From IMG/VR virus record IMGVR_UViG_3300043331_001436, positions 1 to 29,648 of that record: DNA of 29,648 bases; one strand, written 5' to 3'. The notes under the pieces are model-generated. The model saw only the letters and a list, made by a program, of their open reading frames with translations. It was not told where the DNA came from and made no database searches. This stretch comes from a virus. Positions 25-22,334 of this stretch are shown in pieces. Both the position numbers and the translations under genes were made by a program. The first letter of the stretch is position 1. Each line of letters opens with the position of its first letter.

Positions 25-369
25 TCATGGGTGTCTCGAGTAAGAAGCAGCTCTTGTTCCTCTAACGGCTTTCTCGGTCGACGGTCTCCATGGTTTCTTG
101 TCCTCTCCACCAGGTTCTGCAAAGCCCCATTTTCCAAGACAGTGGGAAACAAAACCTGAGGCAGCTCCTCGAGGCATTCCAAAGAGGGTGAATTCGTACT
201 CGAGTTCACCCCTCATAACCCACTTACTCCCGTAAGTCATCGCCCAGTGCATCAGGGCTGTTCTCCTATTCCTGGATTTGAAACGCTCGGAGAGAGTCTT
301 GAAGTTGTGAACTATAGAAGACCGAAGTCGGATGAAGTGGAAGCCATAAATCCTTTTATCATATTTCAT
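25..369 (-). CDS. Hypothetical protein, last visible gene of the nucleotide operon
   Basis: Encodes 114 residues of unknown function. The first half is basic and rich in Arg, His and aromatic residues; a stretch around residues 57-85 (YEFTLFGMPRG, then LGKWGFAE) could be a small winged-helix-like fold, but this is only an impression. The ATG at 369 follows a GGAGG ribosome site by about 10 bases and overlaps the end of the upstream TS-family gene by 11 bases, so it is probably translationally coupled. A second minus-strand frame (15-209) covers its 3' half; either could be coding there, and a frameshift between them cannot be excluded. No family recognised. Confidence 0.55.
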   Translation of the reverse strand: MKYDKRIYGFHFIRLRSSIVHNFKTLSERFKSRNRRTALMHWAMTYGSKWVMRGELEYEFTLFGMPRGAASGFVSHCLGKWGFAEPGGEDKKPWRPSTEKAVRGTRAASYSRHP

Positions 370-1147
370 GGAAGAGTTTCCTCCAATCGTTGATGAAGCA
401 ATGCATCGAGACGCAGTGGAAGCTGAAGATACTGGGACTGACCTTGTTCCACTTCTGGTCCTTCCGCCTTAATTCCTGAAGGAGCCAGAGGGTGAGGCGC
501 GCCGTGAGGTATAGATCATCCCGGAAATGACGAAAGAAATCACAGGACCTGATGTAGTAGGTCGTGTGGAGATTCTCTCCTCGAAGAATCCAATGATAAC
601 CGAGCGTACATGGAACCCGGCCTCCATGGACAACGCCAGTATCCTCGGGGAACCAAATGGGGAGGTAGGCCTGTCTGGTGAATGGATCGCGAAGCAGCTG
701 CTCGATGACATCATTGAGATCTCCGTATGGATACCTGATTCCAAAGTTCATATCACACCCTGGAATCGCCTGATAGCCGGCCTGCTTCGGCCAGTACCTT
801 TCCATGTAGGTATGGGTGAACTTATCGCCTTCGGTCCGGTGAGCATCAGCTGCGAGAGCCCAGGGCCAGTTCTTCCAGGTTTCGCCAGGGTTGAGTGGCT
901 CTCCACCGACCCTTTCCTCGAAGTGCTGATCAGCCCAGGGCAGATTCGGTTGGATATCATCTCTGAGCAGCTGGAGATCCTCGACCAGAGCAACCTGGAA
1001 GCTGATGTTCAGGACCTCCTTCATTGCTGCTTCGGGTCGCTTGGAGACATCCAATCCCTGCCATCGGCCTGGGCCTACATCGTGTGCCTGGTAGTGGAGA
1101 CGATCACCGATGCAGTCGATGGCGAGTCGGAACGTGGGGTATGTCAT
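359..1147 (-). CDS. Thymidylate synthase-family pyrimidine C5-modifying enzyme (possible dCMP-type)
   Basis: A 262-residue divergent member of the ThyA fold, which transfers a one-carbon unit from methylene-tetrahydrofolate to C5 of a pyrimidine deoxynucleotide. Visible marks: catalytic Cys180 in VPCTLGYHW; exactly 20 residues later the phosphate-binding R200-S201-C202-D203; and an H244-x-x-S-x-H249 segment matching HLYSNH of E. coli TS, with Val at the Tyr209 position. Counting ungapped from RSCD, the site equivalent to Asn177, which recognises the uracil ring, is Asp211. T4 dCMP hydroxymethylase and the L. casei N229D mutant also carry Asp there and use dCMP. The ATG at 1147 overlaps the upstream stop (TGATG). 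I infer a dCMP methylase or hydroxymethylase; dUMP as substrate remains possible. Confidence 0.82.
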   Translation of the reverse strand: MTYPTFRLAIDCIGDRLHYQAHDVGPGRWQGLDVSKRPEAAMKEVLNISFQVALVEDLQLLRDDIQPNLPWADQHFEERVGGEPLNPGETWKNWPWALAADAHRTEGDKFTHTYMERYWPKQAGYQAIPGCDMNFGIRYPYGDLNDVIEQLLRDPFTRQAYLPIWFPEDTGVVHGGRVPCTLGYHWILRGENLHTTYYIRSCDFFRHFRDDLYLTARLTLWLLQELRRKDQKWNKVSPSIFSFHCVSMHCFINDWRKLFHEI

Positions 1148-1920
1148 CAAAGGTATTGCTCCAGGTACTCGTTGATCTCCGGCATCCTTTCAGGGTAGTG
1201 CTTCCAAGCGTAGATGTGTTGCTGCTTCTCAGGTGCGTACGGGAACTCGTGCTCCTGCTTACGTACACTCCGCCTCAGGAATCTGGTGGCCACAACAAAC
1301 AACTTCGGCTCCTCTATTCTTATCTTCTCCAGGAACACGATTGGATCCCACCACCTGAACAGCGTCGGGAAGAAGACTCCACTGAGGTAAGCGTGAGTGA
1401 AGTAAAACTTCACGATGTCCGGCTTCACTTCAAGGCGGTCGAAGACCACTGGCAAGAAGGCTAGGTCGGCACTGTGTTTCTTGATTACCTCAGTGGAGCG
1501 GTACAGTACCTCCACCGTCGTGGTCTTCTTGGTCAGTCCAATGACCATGGATTCCATGCAGTGACCCATCGAGCGTGAGTCCTTTGCGCCTGCCCTGAAC
1601 GAATAGGCGAGCGCTGAGAAGGCCTGGTCAGCGCGTCGCGTCAGTAACGCACGAACTCGAGTCGCCTCTTCAGGATTGTAGTACATTCTCTCAAGATTCT
1701 TCATCTTGACTTTGGGGTTGTATCCGACCGCTTCAAGATCGACTTCAGGAATCTTCGGTAGGCTGAACCCGACGGACTGGACGATCTTACGAGCTCCATT
1801 GTACTCCAGAACAGGAGCACTAAGGCAAGCGCGAACAGCTTCATAGGAAGGGAAAGCGGTTCCGTCATACCCCAGTAGAGATCCGTTGCTGATTGATCTC
1901 AGCTTTCTTAAAGTAGCCAT
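1147..1920 (-). CDS. Second, highly divergent thymidylate-synthase-fold protein
   Basis: 257 residues. It is not obviously a TS, but the active-site skeleton is recognisable: Cys121 is followed exactly 20 residues later by R141-S142-T143-E144 (TS: Cys146 to R166-S-C-D169), then an amphipathic helix with Asp152 at the Asn177 position, then a beta segment with H176-A-Y178 matching the His207-x-Tyr209 ribose-binding pair. The C-terminal part is rich in basic and aromatic residues. The ATG at 1920 has a weak AGGA site about 11 bases upstream; a longer frame up to 1986 exists but would overlap the upstream gene by 122 bases. It sits between the pyrophosphatase and the other TS-family gene, suggesting a second step or partner in the same pathway. 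It could also be a catalytically altered or structural homologue. The fold assignment rests on motif spacing only. Confidence 0.65.
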   Translation of the reverse strand: MATLRKLRSISNGSLLGYDGTAFPSYEAVRACLSAPVLEYNGARKIVQSVGFSLPKIPEVDLEAVGYNPKVKMKNLERMYYNPEEATRVRALLTRRADQAFSALAYSFRAGAKDSRSMGHCMESMVIGLTKKTTTVEVLYRSTEVIKKHSADLAFLPVVFDRLEVKPDIVKFYFTHAYLSGVFFPTLFRWWDPIVFLEKIRIEEPKLFVVATRFLRRSVRKQEHEFPYAPEKQQHIYAWKHYPERMPEINEYLEQYL

Positions 1921-2404
1921 TGAGTAGTTGTTCCTCGCTGTAACCACATTCATTGACATGATCCAGGTACGAGGCGAAGAGTTCAACCACTGCCGTCCTG
2001 ATCATGAACAAGTCTGCCGTCAGCTTCTTCTGCTTCCAAGGCCTCAGCCTCAAACTGTGGAGGAGTCGTCCCATTGCAGATCCCATCATCCCGGGAACCG
2101 CCAAATTCTGGTTGGCGTACAGGCTCTGAGCGCTGACACCGGCTCGTAGGCAGATCTCAGCGAGGAAGTGCAGGGCATCACAAAGTTCCTCGAGATCAGC
2201 TGTCCCCTCGAGAGCGTGGGCTTCCCACATTTCCTCAGAGAAGTAGGTAATGAACAGGCGGATTACGGCCTGTCCCTGATAGGAATCGAGATCAGCTGGG
2301 ATCGAATGATTCAGGTTCGAGAGATTCGTTTGCTCGATCAACGAGAACTGATTGGCTAGGATCAGCTGATGGTTGAGTAGCTCTCGTATCTGCTCCAGTG
2401 TCAC
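1865..2404 (-). CDS. All-alpha NTP pyrophosphatase (dUTPase_2 / dCTPase / MazG type)
   Basis: 179 residues from a GTG at 2404. The metal-binding pattern of the all-alpha pyrophosphatases is present: E57-E58-x-x-E61, then E73-L-C-D76 in ELCDALHF. The segment after it (AEICLRAGVSAQSLYANQN) resembles the region following ELVDIFHF in T4 gp56. Such enzymes hydrolyse dNTPs to dNMP and pyrophosphate, which in T4 removes dCTP and dUTP and supplies dCMP and dUMP. The GTG is preceded by GGGAG at 7 bases; an upstream TTG (2461) would add 19 low-complexity residues. It overlaps the kinase gene by 113 bases and the next gene by 56 bases, unusually large for this phage. Substrate choice among dUTP, dCTP and others cannot be read from the sequence. 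Confidence 0.75.
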   Translation of the reverse strand: MTLEQIRELLNHQLILANQFSLIEQTNLSNLNHSIPADLDSYQGQAVIRLFITYFSEEMWEAHALEGTADLEELCDALHFLAEICLRAGVSAQSLYANQNLAVPGMMGSAMGRLLHSLRLRPWKQKKLTADLFMIRTAVVELFASYLDHVNECGYSEEQLLNGYFKKAEINQQRISTGV

Positions 2405-2918
2405 TTTGGCTCTCCCACATGCGGTCGATGATGTTGTTGAGCTCGTCTCCATCTCGATCAAAGTCGTAGTGGTAGACTCGCTTGTAAAGACTCAGTTCGG
2501 TCATCAACGAATCATAGGCTGTGATGATTTTATCGATGAGATCGGGCACGCCTTCCATCTGAGGTGTGATTCGAGTGTTGAGACGAATCCGATCCTTCGA
2601 CGGTCGGCAGTAGATGATCATCGACACTCCGCCCAACAAAGCTCGAGTAGCTTTCGCTCCCTCGAACTCGGCTAAGTGATTGATTCCACGGAAAATTGGT
2701 CCGTAGATTTGTTCGCTGATGGCAGGGTGTCGGTCGAAGAGGAGATCGAGTTTTTCAGGTCTGGACGTAATCCATCGGAGAGTTCGGAGGATTTCTGGTT
2801 TCGAGGTTGGCGGCCTCGATGGTCTCATGATCCAGAAGTAGCGATCAGATCTTGCTCGAATTTGATGGATGAGTGTTGTCTTTCCGGCTCCATCTGGGCC
2901 TTCAACAATCACGATCAT
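2292..2918 (-). CDS. P-loop deoxynucleotide kinase (thymidylate kinase-like)
   Basis: 208 residues. A Walker A loop opens the protein (GPDGAGKTT, residues 7-15), followed by a TMP-kinase-like D62-R63-H64 motif in FDRHPAISEQIYGP and a probable LID at about residues 103-115 (YCRPSKDRIRLN). The kinase domain ends near residue 171; the remaining 37 residues are Ser/Thr/Asp/Pro-rich and lie over the start of the pyrophosphatase gene, so the tail may be non-essential. It begins with ATG at 2918, with GAGGAG about 8 bases upstream, and is the first gene of the leftward operon. Likely role: phosphorylating a normal or modified deoxynucleoside monophosphate (compare T4 gp1). A 5-hydroxymethyl-dU DNA kinase acting on polymer is an alternative, because those phage kinases also belong to the P-loop class. 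Confidence 0.78.
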   Translation of the reverse strand: MIVIVEGPDGAGKTTLIHQIRARSDRYFWIMRPSRPPTSKPEILRTLRWITSRPEKLDLLFDRHPAISEQIYGPIFRGINHLAEFEGAKATRALLGGVSMIIYCRPSKDRIRLNTRITPQMEGVPDLIDKIITAYDSLMTELSLYKRVYHYDFDRDGDELNNIIDRMWESQSDTGADTRATQPSADPSQSVLVDRANESLEPESFDPS

Positions 2919-3073: not shown

Positions 3074-5206
3074 ATGGCGAATCGTAAGGCAGATGCGCCC
3101 GGAAGTAAACACTATGATGCCAGAAGCATCGCTAGAGAATGGCTTAAGGACGGAATCATGCCAGTACCACTCGGTCCTTCGTCAAAGAAACCGAGTGGTG
3201 GAGAGGGGTGGAACCTGCTTCGAGTTACTCCGGAGACTATTGACATTCACTTCTCTCCAGAGGACAACGTCGGGGCTTTATGGGGCTCTCCCAGTGGGTG
3301 GGTCGTTGATATCGATCTGGACTGGGACGAGTCCGTCAAGGTTGCGCAGCGCCTGTTACCACGTACCAGAGTGTACGGGCGTGCCAATCGCCCCCGATCA
3401 CATTACTTGTTTAAGTGCCAGGACATTAAGACTGGCAAGTGGCTAGCTCCGCCGCCTAACGGCACGAACATCGTTGAGATTCGTTCAACAGGTAGTCAGT
3501 CAGTACTTCCTCCCTCCCGTCACCCTGAGGGGGATCTCTATCAGATCGATGACAACTGTCCTCCATCAGAGACGACACCGAAGCAGCTTGAGCGGTGGGT
3601 CAACAAGATTGCCGCGGCCTCGATTCTAGCGCGTCACTACCCTGACGAAGGGGGGCGACACGACTTCATCCATGCCATCACCGGTGGACTCCTTCAGTTA
3701 CACTGGCAAGATGACGCCGTCATCGATTTCACCTGGGCTATCCTCGACGCAGTAGAAGAGATCGAAGACGACCGACCTCAGCGTGAACGAACCATACACA
3801 ATACAATCAAGAGTTTCCACTCTGGGGGGAAGGTATACGGTTTCAAGACCCTGCTGCAATGGGTCACTCCCGAGGTTAGGGATCGACTCAATCGCTGGCT
3901 CGAGAGGGACGCTCGATATAGAGTGAACTTCAGTGAAGTTCCCACCCGAGTCGATCATGGTATCAAGCAAGAGAATTCTATTCAACCATGGCTACTCGAA
4001 GTGCCAGGGTTGGTCGGCGAGATAGCCAAGTGGGCTGGCGCGCGATCCTACGTAAAGCAACCGTTGTTCGATCTGGCTGCTGGTCTAATGAGCACAGCTC
4101 TGCTGAGTGGGAACCGGTTCGTTGTGGATGTCTGGAATACACCGCTACAACCATACTTCATGATCCTCGCACCGACTGCCTGTGGTAAGGAATCTGCGCT
4201 GAACTCGGTTGCTGATTTCGCTCACAGGATGGAACTGGCTGATTCAGTGTTCCAGGGGTTTCAATCCTACCACGCGATGCTCGATCAACTATTGAAGCCA
4301 CCAAACATGGCGTGCTGGTTGTGGGACGAGGCAGGACGTAAGCTGAGACAGGCTGGGAAATCGACCGCTAGTCCTGAGGGTCAGGTGGTAACCTGGCTAC
4401 TCTCTCTGTACGGACGAGCAAATTCCTACTCTCCTGCTTTCCCTGGCCGACAACAAACCATCCCACGAATCGATCATCCATACCTGATCACGTTGGCAGC
4501 TAGTCAGCCAACGATCCTGGTCGAAGCGATCACAACCTCTGATCTCAGTACAGGTCTGATTAATCGGTTCATTCTCATCGATGCCGGGGACAATCCACCT
4601 GAAGATAACTTTAATAGGGTAGATCTATTCCCAGTGAAACTCGCAGAGTCAGCTCGACGGTTCAGTCAGGTTCATATGAATGGGACGTTTATCACCATTC
4701 CTTTTGACTCGACGGCAACGTATAATGTGTTCAAGAACTTTCAAGTGGAGTCTCGGAAACGAGCTGCGATGGAAGGATCTAACGAGATGTGGGGCAGAGC
4801 AACTCAGAACGCTCTGATCTTAGCGGGGATTATCTCCGTTGGCGTTGACCCACTTCATCCACAAATTACTAAACCCGTTGCCGAATGGTCTGTCGAGTTC
4901 AGTCGCTGGAGCTTCGTCCAGTGGAACAACAGGCTTGGAGATTTAGGATCACGCTCGCGAGTGGAGGAACACTCAAAGCAAGTCGAACGAATCATCATGA
5001 ATCCCCGGGTGTATATGGAACGTTTCCAGAAGCGAGCCAATCTGGTCAAGCTTCTATCTGAGGGACTCATGCCGAGATCCGTTCTAACCCGATTGTGTAG
5101 GAACCTAACCTCTCGGGAATTGGATGAGGTTCTAGCAAGCTTGATGCAGGCAGAGCTAATCGCTGGCGGGGATCGAGGCGATTGTGAGGTCTACTGGTCT
5201 AAGTAG
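3074..5206 (+). CDS. Primase-polymerase / ATPase replication protein
   Basis: 710 residues with two modules. The N-terminal third looks like a bifunctional primase-polymerase (Prim-Pol) domain: D79-I-D81 in VVDIDLDW as metal ligands, S109-H110 in PRSHYLF, and IRSTGSQSVLPPSRH near residue 140. The C-terminal part resembles DUF3987-type helicase/ATPase domains, with a P-loop APTACGKES (about 366-374) and a Walker B-like WLWDE (D418, E419). Such proteins prime and unwind DNA during phage or plasmid replication. The start is ATG with AGGAG about 9 bases upstream. It is transcribed divergently from the nucleotide operon, which fits a shared role in DNA synthesis. The residue roles are assigned by motif only. 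Confidence 0.8.
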   Translation: MANRKADAPGSKHYDARSIAREWLKDGIMPVPLGPSSKKPSGGEGWNLLRVTPETIDIHFSPEDNVGALWGSPSGWVVDIDLDWDESVKVAQRLLPRTRVYGRANRPRSHYLFKCQDIKTGKWLAPPPNGTNIVEIRSTGSQSVLPPSRHPEGDLYQIDDNCPPSETTPKQLERWVNKIAAASILARHYPDEGGRHDFIHAITGGLLQLHWQDDAVIDFTWAILDAVEEIEDDRPQRERTIHNTIKSFHSGGKVYGFKTLLQWVTPEVRDRLNRWLERDARYRVNFSEVPTRVDHGIKQENSIQPWLLEVPGLVGEIAKWAGARSYVKQPLFDLAAGLMSTALLSGNRFVVDVWNTPLQPYFMILAPTACGKESALNSVADFAHRMELADSVFQGFQSYHAMLDQLLKPPNMACWLWDEAGRKLRQAGKSTASPEGQVVTWLLSLYGRANSYSPAFPGRQQTIPRIDHPYLITLAASQPTILVEAITTSDLSTGLINRFILIDAGDNPPEDNFNRVDLFPVKLAESARRFSQVHMNGTFITIPFDSTATYNVFKNFQVESRKRAAMEGSNEMWGRATQNALILAGIISVGVDPLHPQITKPVAEWSVEFSRWSFVQWNNRLGDLGSRSRVEEHSKQVERIIMNPRVYMERFQKRANLVKLLSEGLMPRSVLTRLCRNLTSRELDEVLASLMQAELIAGGDRGDCEVYWSK

Positions 5207-21028: not shown

Positions 21029-21819
21029 ACGCAGTTATCATCCGAGTACCCGCAGTCGTTGAACAGGCTGTAGGATCCTTCAACACCCCTGGTGGAGCTA
21101 GTACCTCCAACTCTGGAGCCGTTAGGATCATGAGGACTGGCGGCGCCAATGTTGGAGACGCTGAGTTCACCATCGAGTTGTGGATTCGACCAAGTGCAAC
21201 TGATGTTGATAACGGTCAAGAGGGTCAGGTCACTGCAGGAGCCAACTACTCCGGCACGAATGGGAATATCATCTGGGATTCTGATGGATTCAGTACGGGT
21301 CAAGGATGGATCTTTGGTCTCGACACAGGAAGGGCATATCTGAGTGTTGTTGCCAACGGTGGTGGAGGTGGAAACATCAGGACTGTGCTGGGAACTACAG
21401 ATCTTCGGGATGGTCTGTGGCATCACGTAGCTTTTTATCGGAATGCCTCTACCGGGCTGATGGAGATCTTTGTTGATGGAGCTCGAGAAGCTACGGTGAC
21501 TGGTCCTACTGGTGACTGCTCCTACCCAGGAGGTGGCGCTGCTACTGATGACGAGCATGTCATTGGAAAGGAGAAATTGAATCTGGCTTTTGGTTTTGAT
21601 GGGGATCCTTCCGAGATTCGGATCTCGGTCAATCGCAGGTACAACGGGGCGACCTACACTGTTCCCACTGCCCCCTTCGAGGATGACGTGAACACTGTTG
21701 GTTTGTACCATGCTGATCAGGGGTCAGGAACTCAGTTGACCGATTACTCGAGCGAAGGAAATCATGGAACTTTGATCGGGAATCCAGTACCGACCTGGTC
21801 AACGGATGACCCATTCTGA
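21025..21819 (+). CDS. LamG/concanavalin-like lectin domain protein
   Basis: 264 residues. FTIELWIRPSATDVD (about 48-62), GLWHHVAFYRNASTGLMEIFVDG, and EIRISVNRRYNG are hallmarks of the LamG_3-type jelly-roll, a carbohydrate-binding fold. Ends with GLYHADQGSG, typical of such domains. GTG start overlaps the upstream stop (GTGA) and the gene ends overlapping the next (TGATG). Likely a virion appendage or receptor-binding protein. Confidence 0.8.
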   Translation: MNAVIIRVPAVVEQAVGSFNTPGGASTSNSGAVRIMRTGGANVGDAEFTIELWIRPSATDVDNGQEGQVTAGANYSGTNGNIIWDSDGFSTGQGWIFGLDTGRAYLSVVANGGGGGNIRTVLGTTDLRDGLWHHVAFYRNASTGLMEIFVDGAREATVTGPTGDCSYPGGGAATDDEHVIGKEKLNLAFGFDGDPSEIRISVNRRYNGATYTVPTAPFEDDVNTVGLYHADQGSGTQLTDYSSEGNHGTLIGNPVPTWSTDDPF

Positions 21820-22334
21820 TGTTTGAATCTCTACAACAATACGCTCGAATCGTGGTCTCTGGTCCGCATCGATCAGGCACCACCATCTGTGGAGAGATGA
21901 TCGCCCAGGATACAGGCTATCAGTCACTGAGGGAAGAAGCTTTTGGTTGGTCAGACGAAGGTCGTTTCCTTGAGTGTCTTACTCGAGAGAAAGTTGTTCT
22001 TCAGGCTCCGTTCCTTGCCCATATGCTCCATTACCTGAAGGAGTATGTCGACGAGAATAGTCTCTGCGTTGTGATGATGAAGAGACCAGTTGAGGAGATT
22101 CTCGCTTCTCAACAGAGGATGTTCGAGCAATTCAAGACTGGGTCTGGGATTTGGGCCTATCGACTTCGAAAGTTCCATGCACTAACTCCAATGCCTGAGG
22201 TGGTCTACGAGACCTGGGAGTACCAGCAGACTAGAATCAAATACTGGATGGAAGTTCAGTACTCTGACCTGAAGAGGAACAAGTTGTGGGTCGAGGATCG
22301 CTCGCAGTTTCACTTTCGTCAGACCTCGCGCTAG
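21819..22334 (+). CDS. Sulfotransferase-like P-loop protein
   Basis: 171 residues. G15-P-H-R-S-G-T-T22 corresponds to the 5'-phosphosulfate loop of PAPS-dependent sulfotransferases, and MMKRPVEEILASQQ (about 86-99) to the 3'-phosphate motif (R-x-P...S). It is shorter than usual sulfotransferases (about 250-300 residues), so the acceptor-binding part is reduced. Enclosed by tail genes with overlaps on both sides, so it is co-transcribed with the virion proteins. It could sulfate a tail protein, a host glycan or a small molecule; a nucleotide-kinase-like role is the alternative. Confidence 0.65.
   Translation: MFESLQQYARIVVSGPHRSGTTICGEMIAQDTGYQSLREEAFGWSDEGRFLECLTREKVVLQAPFLAHMLHYLKEYVDENSLCVVMMKRPVEEILASQQRMFEQFKTGSGIWAYRLRKFHALTPMPEVVYETWEYQQTRIKYWMEVQYSDLKRNKLWVEDRSQFHFRQTSR

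Follow-up and report, generated by a model that had tools for sequence, protein, structure and literature searches.

A compact phage cassette with two thymidylate synthase-fold proteins that probably serves T4-like replacement of cytosine

Enzymes of the thymidylate synthase (TS) family are dimers whose active sites are shared between the subunits, and an Asp at position 177 of the Escherichia coli enzyme (EcTS) is a known switch from uracil to cytosine specificity. In Xanthomonas phage Xp12, cytosine is replaced by 5-methylcytosine. The deoxycytidine monophosphate (dCMP) methylase of Xp12 has been named as a TS-family phage enzyme, and Ser167 and Arg126 mark a preference for deoxyribose (PMC5175136). 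Positions 177 and 147 best separate phage contigs with modified cytosine from unmodified ones (PMC8670742). In the dCMP hydroxymethylase of phage T4, Asp145, three residues before the catalytic Cys, and Ser94 place a water molecule on the methylene intermediate, while TS has Leu at the former site; an acidic residue (Asp or Glu) at the third position before the Cys and a Ser or Thr two before the tyrosine of the YG motif make up the hydroxymethylase signature (PMC6400193). Here we describe a four-gene cassette at the left edge of IMG/VR virus record IMGVR_UViG_3300043331_001436 (the window, the whole stretch of 29,648 bases). With a probability of about 0.7, its product is a deoxycytidine nucleotide modified at C5 that takes the place of cytosine in the phage DNA, on the plan of T4.

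The cassette lies on the minus strand and runs from 2918 down to 359. An earlier reading made from the letters of the DNA (the sequence-only reading) had placed there an overlapping operon of four genes, divergent from a replication gene. All four were found at that place and on that strand, and the divergent neighbor is a Prim-Pol primase. Starts were reassigned from homology and Shine-Dalgarno sequences, giving the following genes:

2292..2918, minus strand: K, a P-loop nucleotide kinase of the deoxynucleoside monophosphate (dNMP) kinase type (PHROG 761 thymidylate kinase, 8e-16; Walker A motif GPDGAGKT; ATG at 2918)
1865..2404, minus strand: D, an all-alpha nucleoside triphosphate (NTP) pyrophosphatase of the dUTPase_2 family (Pfam PF08761, 8e-10; GTG start)
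1147..1920, minus strand: P3, a divergent TS-fold protein of 257 residues (AlphaFold and structure search; ATG at 1920)
359..1147, minus strand: P4, a TS-family enzyme of 262 residues with a cytosine-type specificity residue (PHROG thymidylate synthase, 3e-27; AlphaFold; ATG at 1147)

The profile matches of K and D bear out the dNMP-type kinase and the all-alpha NTP pyrophosphatase that had been proposed. In Pfam, K has a sub-threshold match only, while T4 gp56, a dCTPase/dUTPase, falls in the same Pfam family as D. Adjoining genes overlap by 113 nucleotides (K/D), 56 nucleotides (D/P3) and 1 nucleotide (P3/P4, as TGATG). The start of D at GTG 2404 is preceded by the Shine-Dalgarno sequence GGGAG, and an alternative start at TTG 2461 was rejected in its favor.

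Residue conservation in P4 was assessed in 131 relatives, with positions numbered by their EcTS equivalents. Three codons are central to what follows:

608..610, minus strand: P4 Cys180, equivalent to the catalytic Cys146 of EcTS (131/131 relatives)
515..517, minus strand: P4 Asp211, at EcTS position 177, the cytosine-specificity residue (Asp in 131/131)
617..619, minus strand: P4 Arg177, three residues before the Cys, at the site of the essential Asp145 of T4 (Arg in 131/131 and in 82/82 relatives)

The equivalents of Cys146, Arg166, His207 and Arg126 are invariant, and position 147 is Thr or Ser in all 131 sequences. The residues of deoxyribose type are Ser201 at position 167 (129/131) and Arg158, the equivalent of Arg126 (131/131). 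Several relatives carry a gene for a deoxythymidine monophosphate synthase in addition to P4, either ThyX (seven loci) or a canonical ThyA (as in L017). Given the Asp at 177, the deoxyribose-type Ser and Arg, and the separate ThyX or ThyA in some carriers, dCMP is the likely substrate of P4, rather than deoxyuridine monophosphate (dUMP), and on its residues P4 passes as a cytosine-nucleotide enzyme of the TS family. The modified pyrimidine of the sequence-only reading can therefore be narrowed: cytosine is most likely, since every relative has Asp at position 177, and the thymine alternative loses ground. Canonical synthesis of deoxythymidine monophosphate by P4 was rejected on the same Asp and on the ThyX or ThyA alongside; for the Asn177, His147 and C-terminal tail of canonical ThyA, P4 has Asp, Thr or Ser, and no tail. 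A different TS, also with Asp at 177, was seen beside genes for dCMP deaminase and dihydrofolate reductase (DHFR) in Pseudomonas phage phiH1 (L025, 5584-6944); it could be an Xp12-like dCMP methylase.

Structure prediction, which the sequence-only reading had named as a test of its two TS-fold proteins, was carried out on monomers, with 79 natural P3 sequences as input for P3. On these predictions the two TS-fold proteins are real. The P4 model (predicted local distance difference test, pLDDT, 94.6) was aligned by VIA-align with MilA (Z 19.5; 2.4 Å over 217 residues), AfhB (19.5) and E. coli ThyA (19.0), and its TS fold was also matched by Foldseek. The P3 model (mean pLDDT 91.8, predicted template-modeling score 0.87) has a helical region of its own at the C-terminal end. 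Foldseek matched it to TS-family enzymes (E about 1e-5, probability 1.0), and VIA-align to the phage dCMP hydroxylase AfhB (Z 11.4 and 11.0; 3.4 Å over 169 residues), followed by MilA (10.3) and ThyA (about 9.7), with gaps to AfhB near the limit of a tie. Among the 50 entries listed in the structure search, all were TS-superfamily chains, with Z of 9.2-11.4. P3 gave no sequence match in Pfam, NCBIfam or PDB and is missed by TS sequence profiles; its only sequence match is PHROG 34294, annotated "unknown", and profile-profile comparison with TS was inconclusive (hhalign P 5e-4 at best). Relatives of P3 are already labeled "pyrimidine hmase synthase" in some GenBank records. P3 belongs to a TS-fold family that has gone unnoticed (PHROGs 34294 and 13667, both annotated "unknown function"), and P4 accompanies it in almost every locus.

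Four residues of P3 (Cys121, Arg141, Glu144 and Asp152) are kept in 79/79 sequences with TS spacing (C+20, R+11), which suggests selection on an active site. Two of them take the places of TS residues:

1558..1560, minus strand: P3 Cys121, equivalent to the catalytic Cys146 of TS (invariant in 79 P3 sequences)
1465..1467, minus strand: P3 Asp152, at the spacing of TS position 177 (Arg141 + 11; invariant in 79 P3 sequences)

No conserved P3 His was found at the strand expected for His207 of TS, which contacts the sugar, in an alignment that is unsure there.

Phage records (INPHARED) were searched by tblastn, with P4 matches counted at E <= 1e-3. P3 was found in 18 records and P4 in up to 150, some of them distantly related; in IMG/VR, 75 loci carry P3, and of 380 matches to P4, 80 were kept for analysis. 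Both genes occur together in 138 loci, some of which duplicate one contig. Within this set, 118 loci have K, 118 have D, 131 have dCMP deaminase and 130 have polymerase I, and 89 show exactly the order K-D-P3-P4-dCMP deaminase-DNA polymerase I. Because the identical order recurs in these 89 loci, with variants in addition, the cassette is not a chance arrangement. As the cassette of the window is truncated by the end of the contig, its dCMP deaminase and DNA polymerase I genes are expected beyond base 1. P3 and P4 lie on one strand in each of 104 nonredundant loci. Carriers include phages of Gordonia, Mycobacterium, Microbacterium, Streptomyces, Curtobacterium, Pseudomonas, Serratia, Yersinia and Brevundimonas, some loci lacking one member of the cassette. 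In the actinophage loci the order is unchanged and P3 is very divergent yet homologous (hhalign E 2e-7). A search of 84,980 prokaryote genomes returned only eight matches, all on metagenome-assembled contigs, which points to a phage function. PADLOC holds no defense-system family matching P3 or P4, and no DHFR or relative of the T4 beta-glucosyltransferase was found near the cassette in loci with both proteins. Two further arrangements were seen: a tandem pair of P4-like open reading frames (ORFs) after P3 (L149, 3444-5765) and, directly after the cassette, a uracil-DNA glycosylase domain fused to a family A DNA polymerase (L001, 6918-9377; Pfam UDG 2e-34, DNA_pol_A 1e-57).

Whereas the genes present, the folds of both TS-like proteins, their conservation and their active-site residues are established, we infer each reaction, the direction of flow and the modified base in the DNA. 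D would hydrolyze deoxycytidine triphosphate (and deoxyuridine triphosphate) to the monophosphate, so that normal cytosine is withheld from the polymerase and dCMP is supplied. Cys180 of P4 would attack C6 of dCMP, with Asp211 recognizing the cytosine ring, and a one-carbon unit from methylene-tetrahydrofolate would be added at C5. The product is predicted to be most likely 5-hydroxymethyl-dCMP, or else to bear a 5-methyl, 5-hydroxy or CH2-X group. P3 might assist P4 or act on the cytosine nucleotide in a second step. The modified dCMP would then be phosphorylated by K, converted to the triphosphate by a host kinase and incorporated by the phage polymerase, while the dCMP deaminase that adjoins the cassette in relatives would supply dUMP for thymine. 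The earlier proposal of a pathway in which a canonical deoxynucleoside triphosphate is removed and a C5-modified replacement made is supported.

Several observations weigh against this account. The acid three residues before the Cys of hydroxymethylases is absent from P4, Arg being present in 131/131 relatives, and P4 departs in this from the published rule that such an acid marks pyrimidine hydroxymethylases. No Ser is found at the T4 Ser94 site, where column 139 of a moderate alignment is mostly Tyr or Phe, and the catalytic Glu58 of TS (Glu60 in T4) aligns with P4 Asn68 in 68/82 relatives, in an unsure alignment. The annotations of Serratia phage Serbin and Pseudomonas phage PMBT14 list neither a glycosyl- nor a carbamoyltransferase, and a search of 40 contigs turned up no carbamoyltransferase. 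Around Asn68 the helix is broken in the AlphaFold model, and a conserved Glu78 is close in sequence. In favor of the account, P4 is without the TS C-terminal tail, as is the T4 hydroxymethylase. Published accounts of the carriers P744 and Knuthellervirus make no mention of DNA modification. Because P4 fails the published signature, 5-hydroxymethyl-dCMP is our best guess for the product at somewhat below even odds. The missing acid and the missing transferases for a further group would also suit a variant of the account that differs in the product, with P4 as a dCMP methylase that takes a hydride from tetrahydrofolate and 5-methylcytosine replacing cytosine as in Xp12, and C5-cytosine DNA methylases were above the Pfam cut-off in 0/40 P3 contigs, a count that has no baseline for comparison. 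Nevertheless, a methylase is unlikely given the absence of the TS tail from P4 and of DHFR from P4 loci, and the Arg in place of the Leu of TS. A further variant of this kind, in which one of the two TS-fold proteins hydroxylates dCMP with the help of flavin, as AfhB (phage HY126) and RB69 p048 do, and 5-hydroxycytosine results, is improbable: P3 resembles AfhB most closely in structure, and GT34, epimerase and uridine diphosphate-glucose dehydrogenase genes lie next to P4 in a large contig without P3 (L172), but the Z lead over MilA is only about 1, RB69 p048 has Glu where P4 has Arg177, and the full annotations of the small phages Serbin and PMBT14 list no sugar genes. More speculatively, P3 and P4 may carry out a new C5 reaction on dCMP, in which the methylene intermediate is captured by a reactant other than water and hydride and P3 finishes the base; a new cytosine derivative would then be present in widespread phages, and an acidic co-substrate would be bound by Arg177, which takes the place of the water-activating Asp of hydroxymethylases. 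A thymine route, in which P4 either hydroxymethylates dUMP or is a divergent TS, so that thymine is modified or made, would be fed with dUMP by the dCMP deaminase and the dUTPase-family gene and would fit the thymidylate kinase-like K. It is nonetheless very unlikely in view of the cytosine-type Asp in all 131 P4 sequences and the co-occurrence of ThyX or ThyA.

For the two TS-fold proteins, the sequence-only reading had suggested a two-step or heteromeric enzyme, and an obligate TS-like heterodimer with mutually completed active sites, compatible with cytosine replacement, would agree with the shared active sites of TS dimers, with the presence of P4 in 73/75 P3 loci and with frames that overlap or abut in 58/93. 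A quick tree of P4, however, contains a clade of 19 contigs from large phages, and a few others, in which P4 occurs without P3, and P3 was absent across the entire contig in 5/5 P4-only contigs checked. Moreover, K and D are fused in seven ORFs matched by both hidden Markov models (e.g., L088, 3-830; L081, 2322-3353; L059, 3935-5020), whereas no P3-P4 fusion was found, and in a mirror-tree analysis the P3 and P4 distances were uncorrelated beyond the background of the other cassette genes (partial r -0.08). On these grounds a heteromer is possible but not favored, and the suggestion is so far unsupported; a two-step role may still apply to P3. P3 sequences vary more than those of P4 (median identity 26% versus 47%), which would suit a protein that faces the host or has a regulatory role. 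It could accordingly be supposed that the cassette only manages nucleotide pools, with the DNA unmodified and P3 regulating P4 or blocking the host TS; the apparent selection on the P3 active site and the cytosine-type specificity residues of P4 make this quite unlikely. In four loci a variant C5-cytosine DNA methylase occupies the P3 slot just upstream of P4 (L003, 2964-5126; L112, 3345-4703; L117, 3884-5002; L127, 2915-4135), in which the common PCQ motif is replaced by HPECG or QPKCGGFS; the L003 copy contains an intein. Read cautiously, this may hint that C5 of cytosine is a target of P3 as well.

The window is a fragment without end repeats, and its gene content is podovirus-like, with terminase, head-to-tail connector, capsid and tail genes. 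Two ORFs flank the cassette:

25..369, minus strand: P5, a small ORF that overlaps the end of P4 by 11 nucleotides and has a good ribosome-binding site
3074..5206, plus strand: Prim-Pol primase-helicase, the divergent neighbor, outside the pathway proper (Pfam PF09250, 3e-12; PHROG DNA primase, 1e-42)

No relative of P5 was found among the fetched loci. A small sulfotransferase-like P-loop protein is encoded among the tail genes at 21819-22334 (Pfam sub-threshold, 2e-3).

If cytosine replacement is correct, many sequenced isolates, among the up to 150 INPHARED records with a P4 match, and hundreds of metagenomic phages replace cytosine unrecognized, with a bearing on restriction, Type IV defense, CRISPR use and the sequencing of carrier phages. 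Since cultured carriers exist, among them Serbin, PMBT14, Gordonia phage Survivors and Lebethron, the question of DNA modification is directly testable.

Among known systems, the TS-domain proteins of the modified-cytosine contigs found by MetaGPA mostly have, as P4 does, Asp at 177 and a distinctive residue at 147, with dCMP deaminase and pyrophosphohydrolase as neighbors; a carbamoyltransferase is their frequent partner (PMC8670742), whereas no such gene turned up here, where P3 is part of the cassette. The cytidine monophosphate (CMP) hydroxymethylase MilA (PDB 5jnh, 5b6d), the top structural match of P4 in a tie with AfhB and TS, shares the Cys-Thr motif and Asp at 177. It differs in preferring CMP and in the Asp three before its Cys, where P4 has deoxyribose-type Ser and Arg residues and Arg177. 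AfhB and RB69 p048 (PDB 9iqc, 9iqu) likewise have the TS fold and act on dCMP; AfhB is nearest to P3 and also near to P4, a likeness of fold only, with Glu three before the Cys and about 18% identity to P4 and 9% to P3. The Xp12 methylase, a phage TS-family enzyme acting on dCMP, is likened to P4 by description only. T4 itself (gp56, the dCMP hydroxymethylase gp42, the dNMP kinase gp1 and dCMP deaminase) shares with the cassette the Pfam family of the pyrophosphatase, a P-loop kinase and a TS-fold enzyme with catalytic Cys and cytosine-type Asp (T4 Cys148 and Asp179; 131/131 in P4). Of these T4-type parts, whose substrates here are predicted, the window holds pyrophosphatase and kinase, and its relatives add the dCMP deaminase. 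T4 gp42 differs from P4 in sequence (about 18% identity) and in having Asp145 where P4 has Arg, and T4 has neither the single compact operon nor the extra TS-fold protein P3. The cassette is thus probably a widespread, T4-like system of cytosine replacement that is condensed into one operon and equipped with an additional TS-fold protein and an unusual TS-like enzyme.

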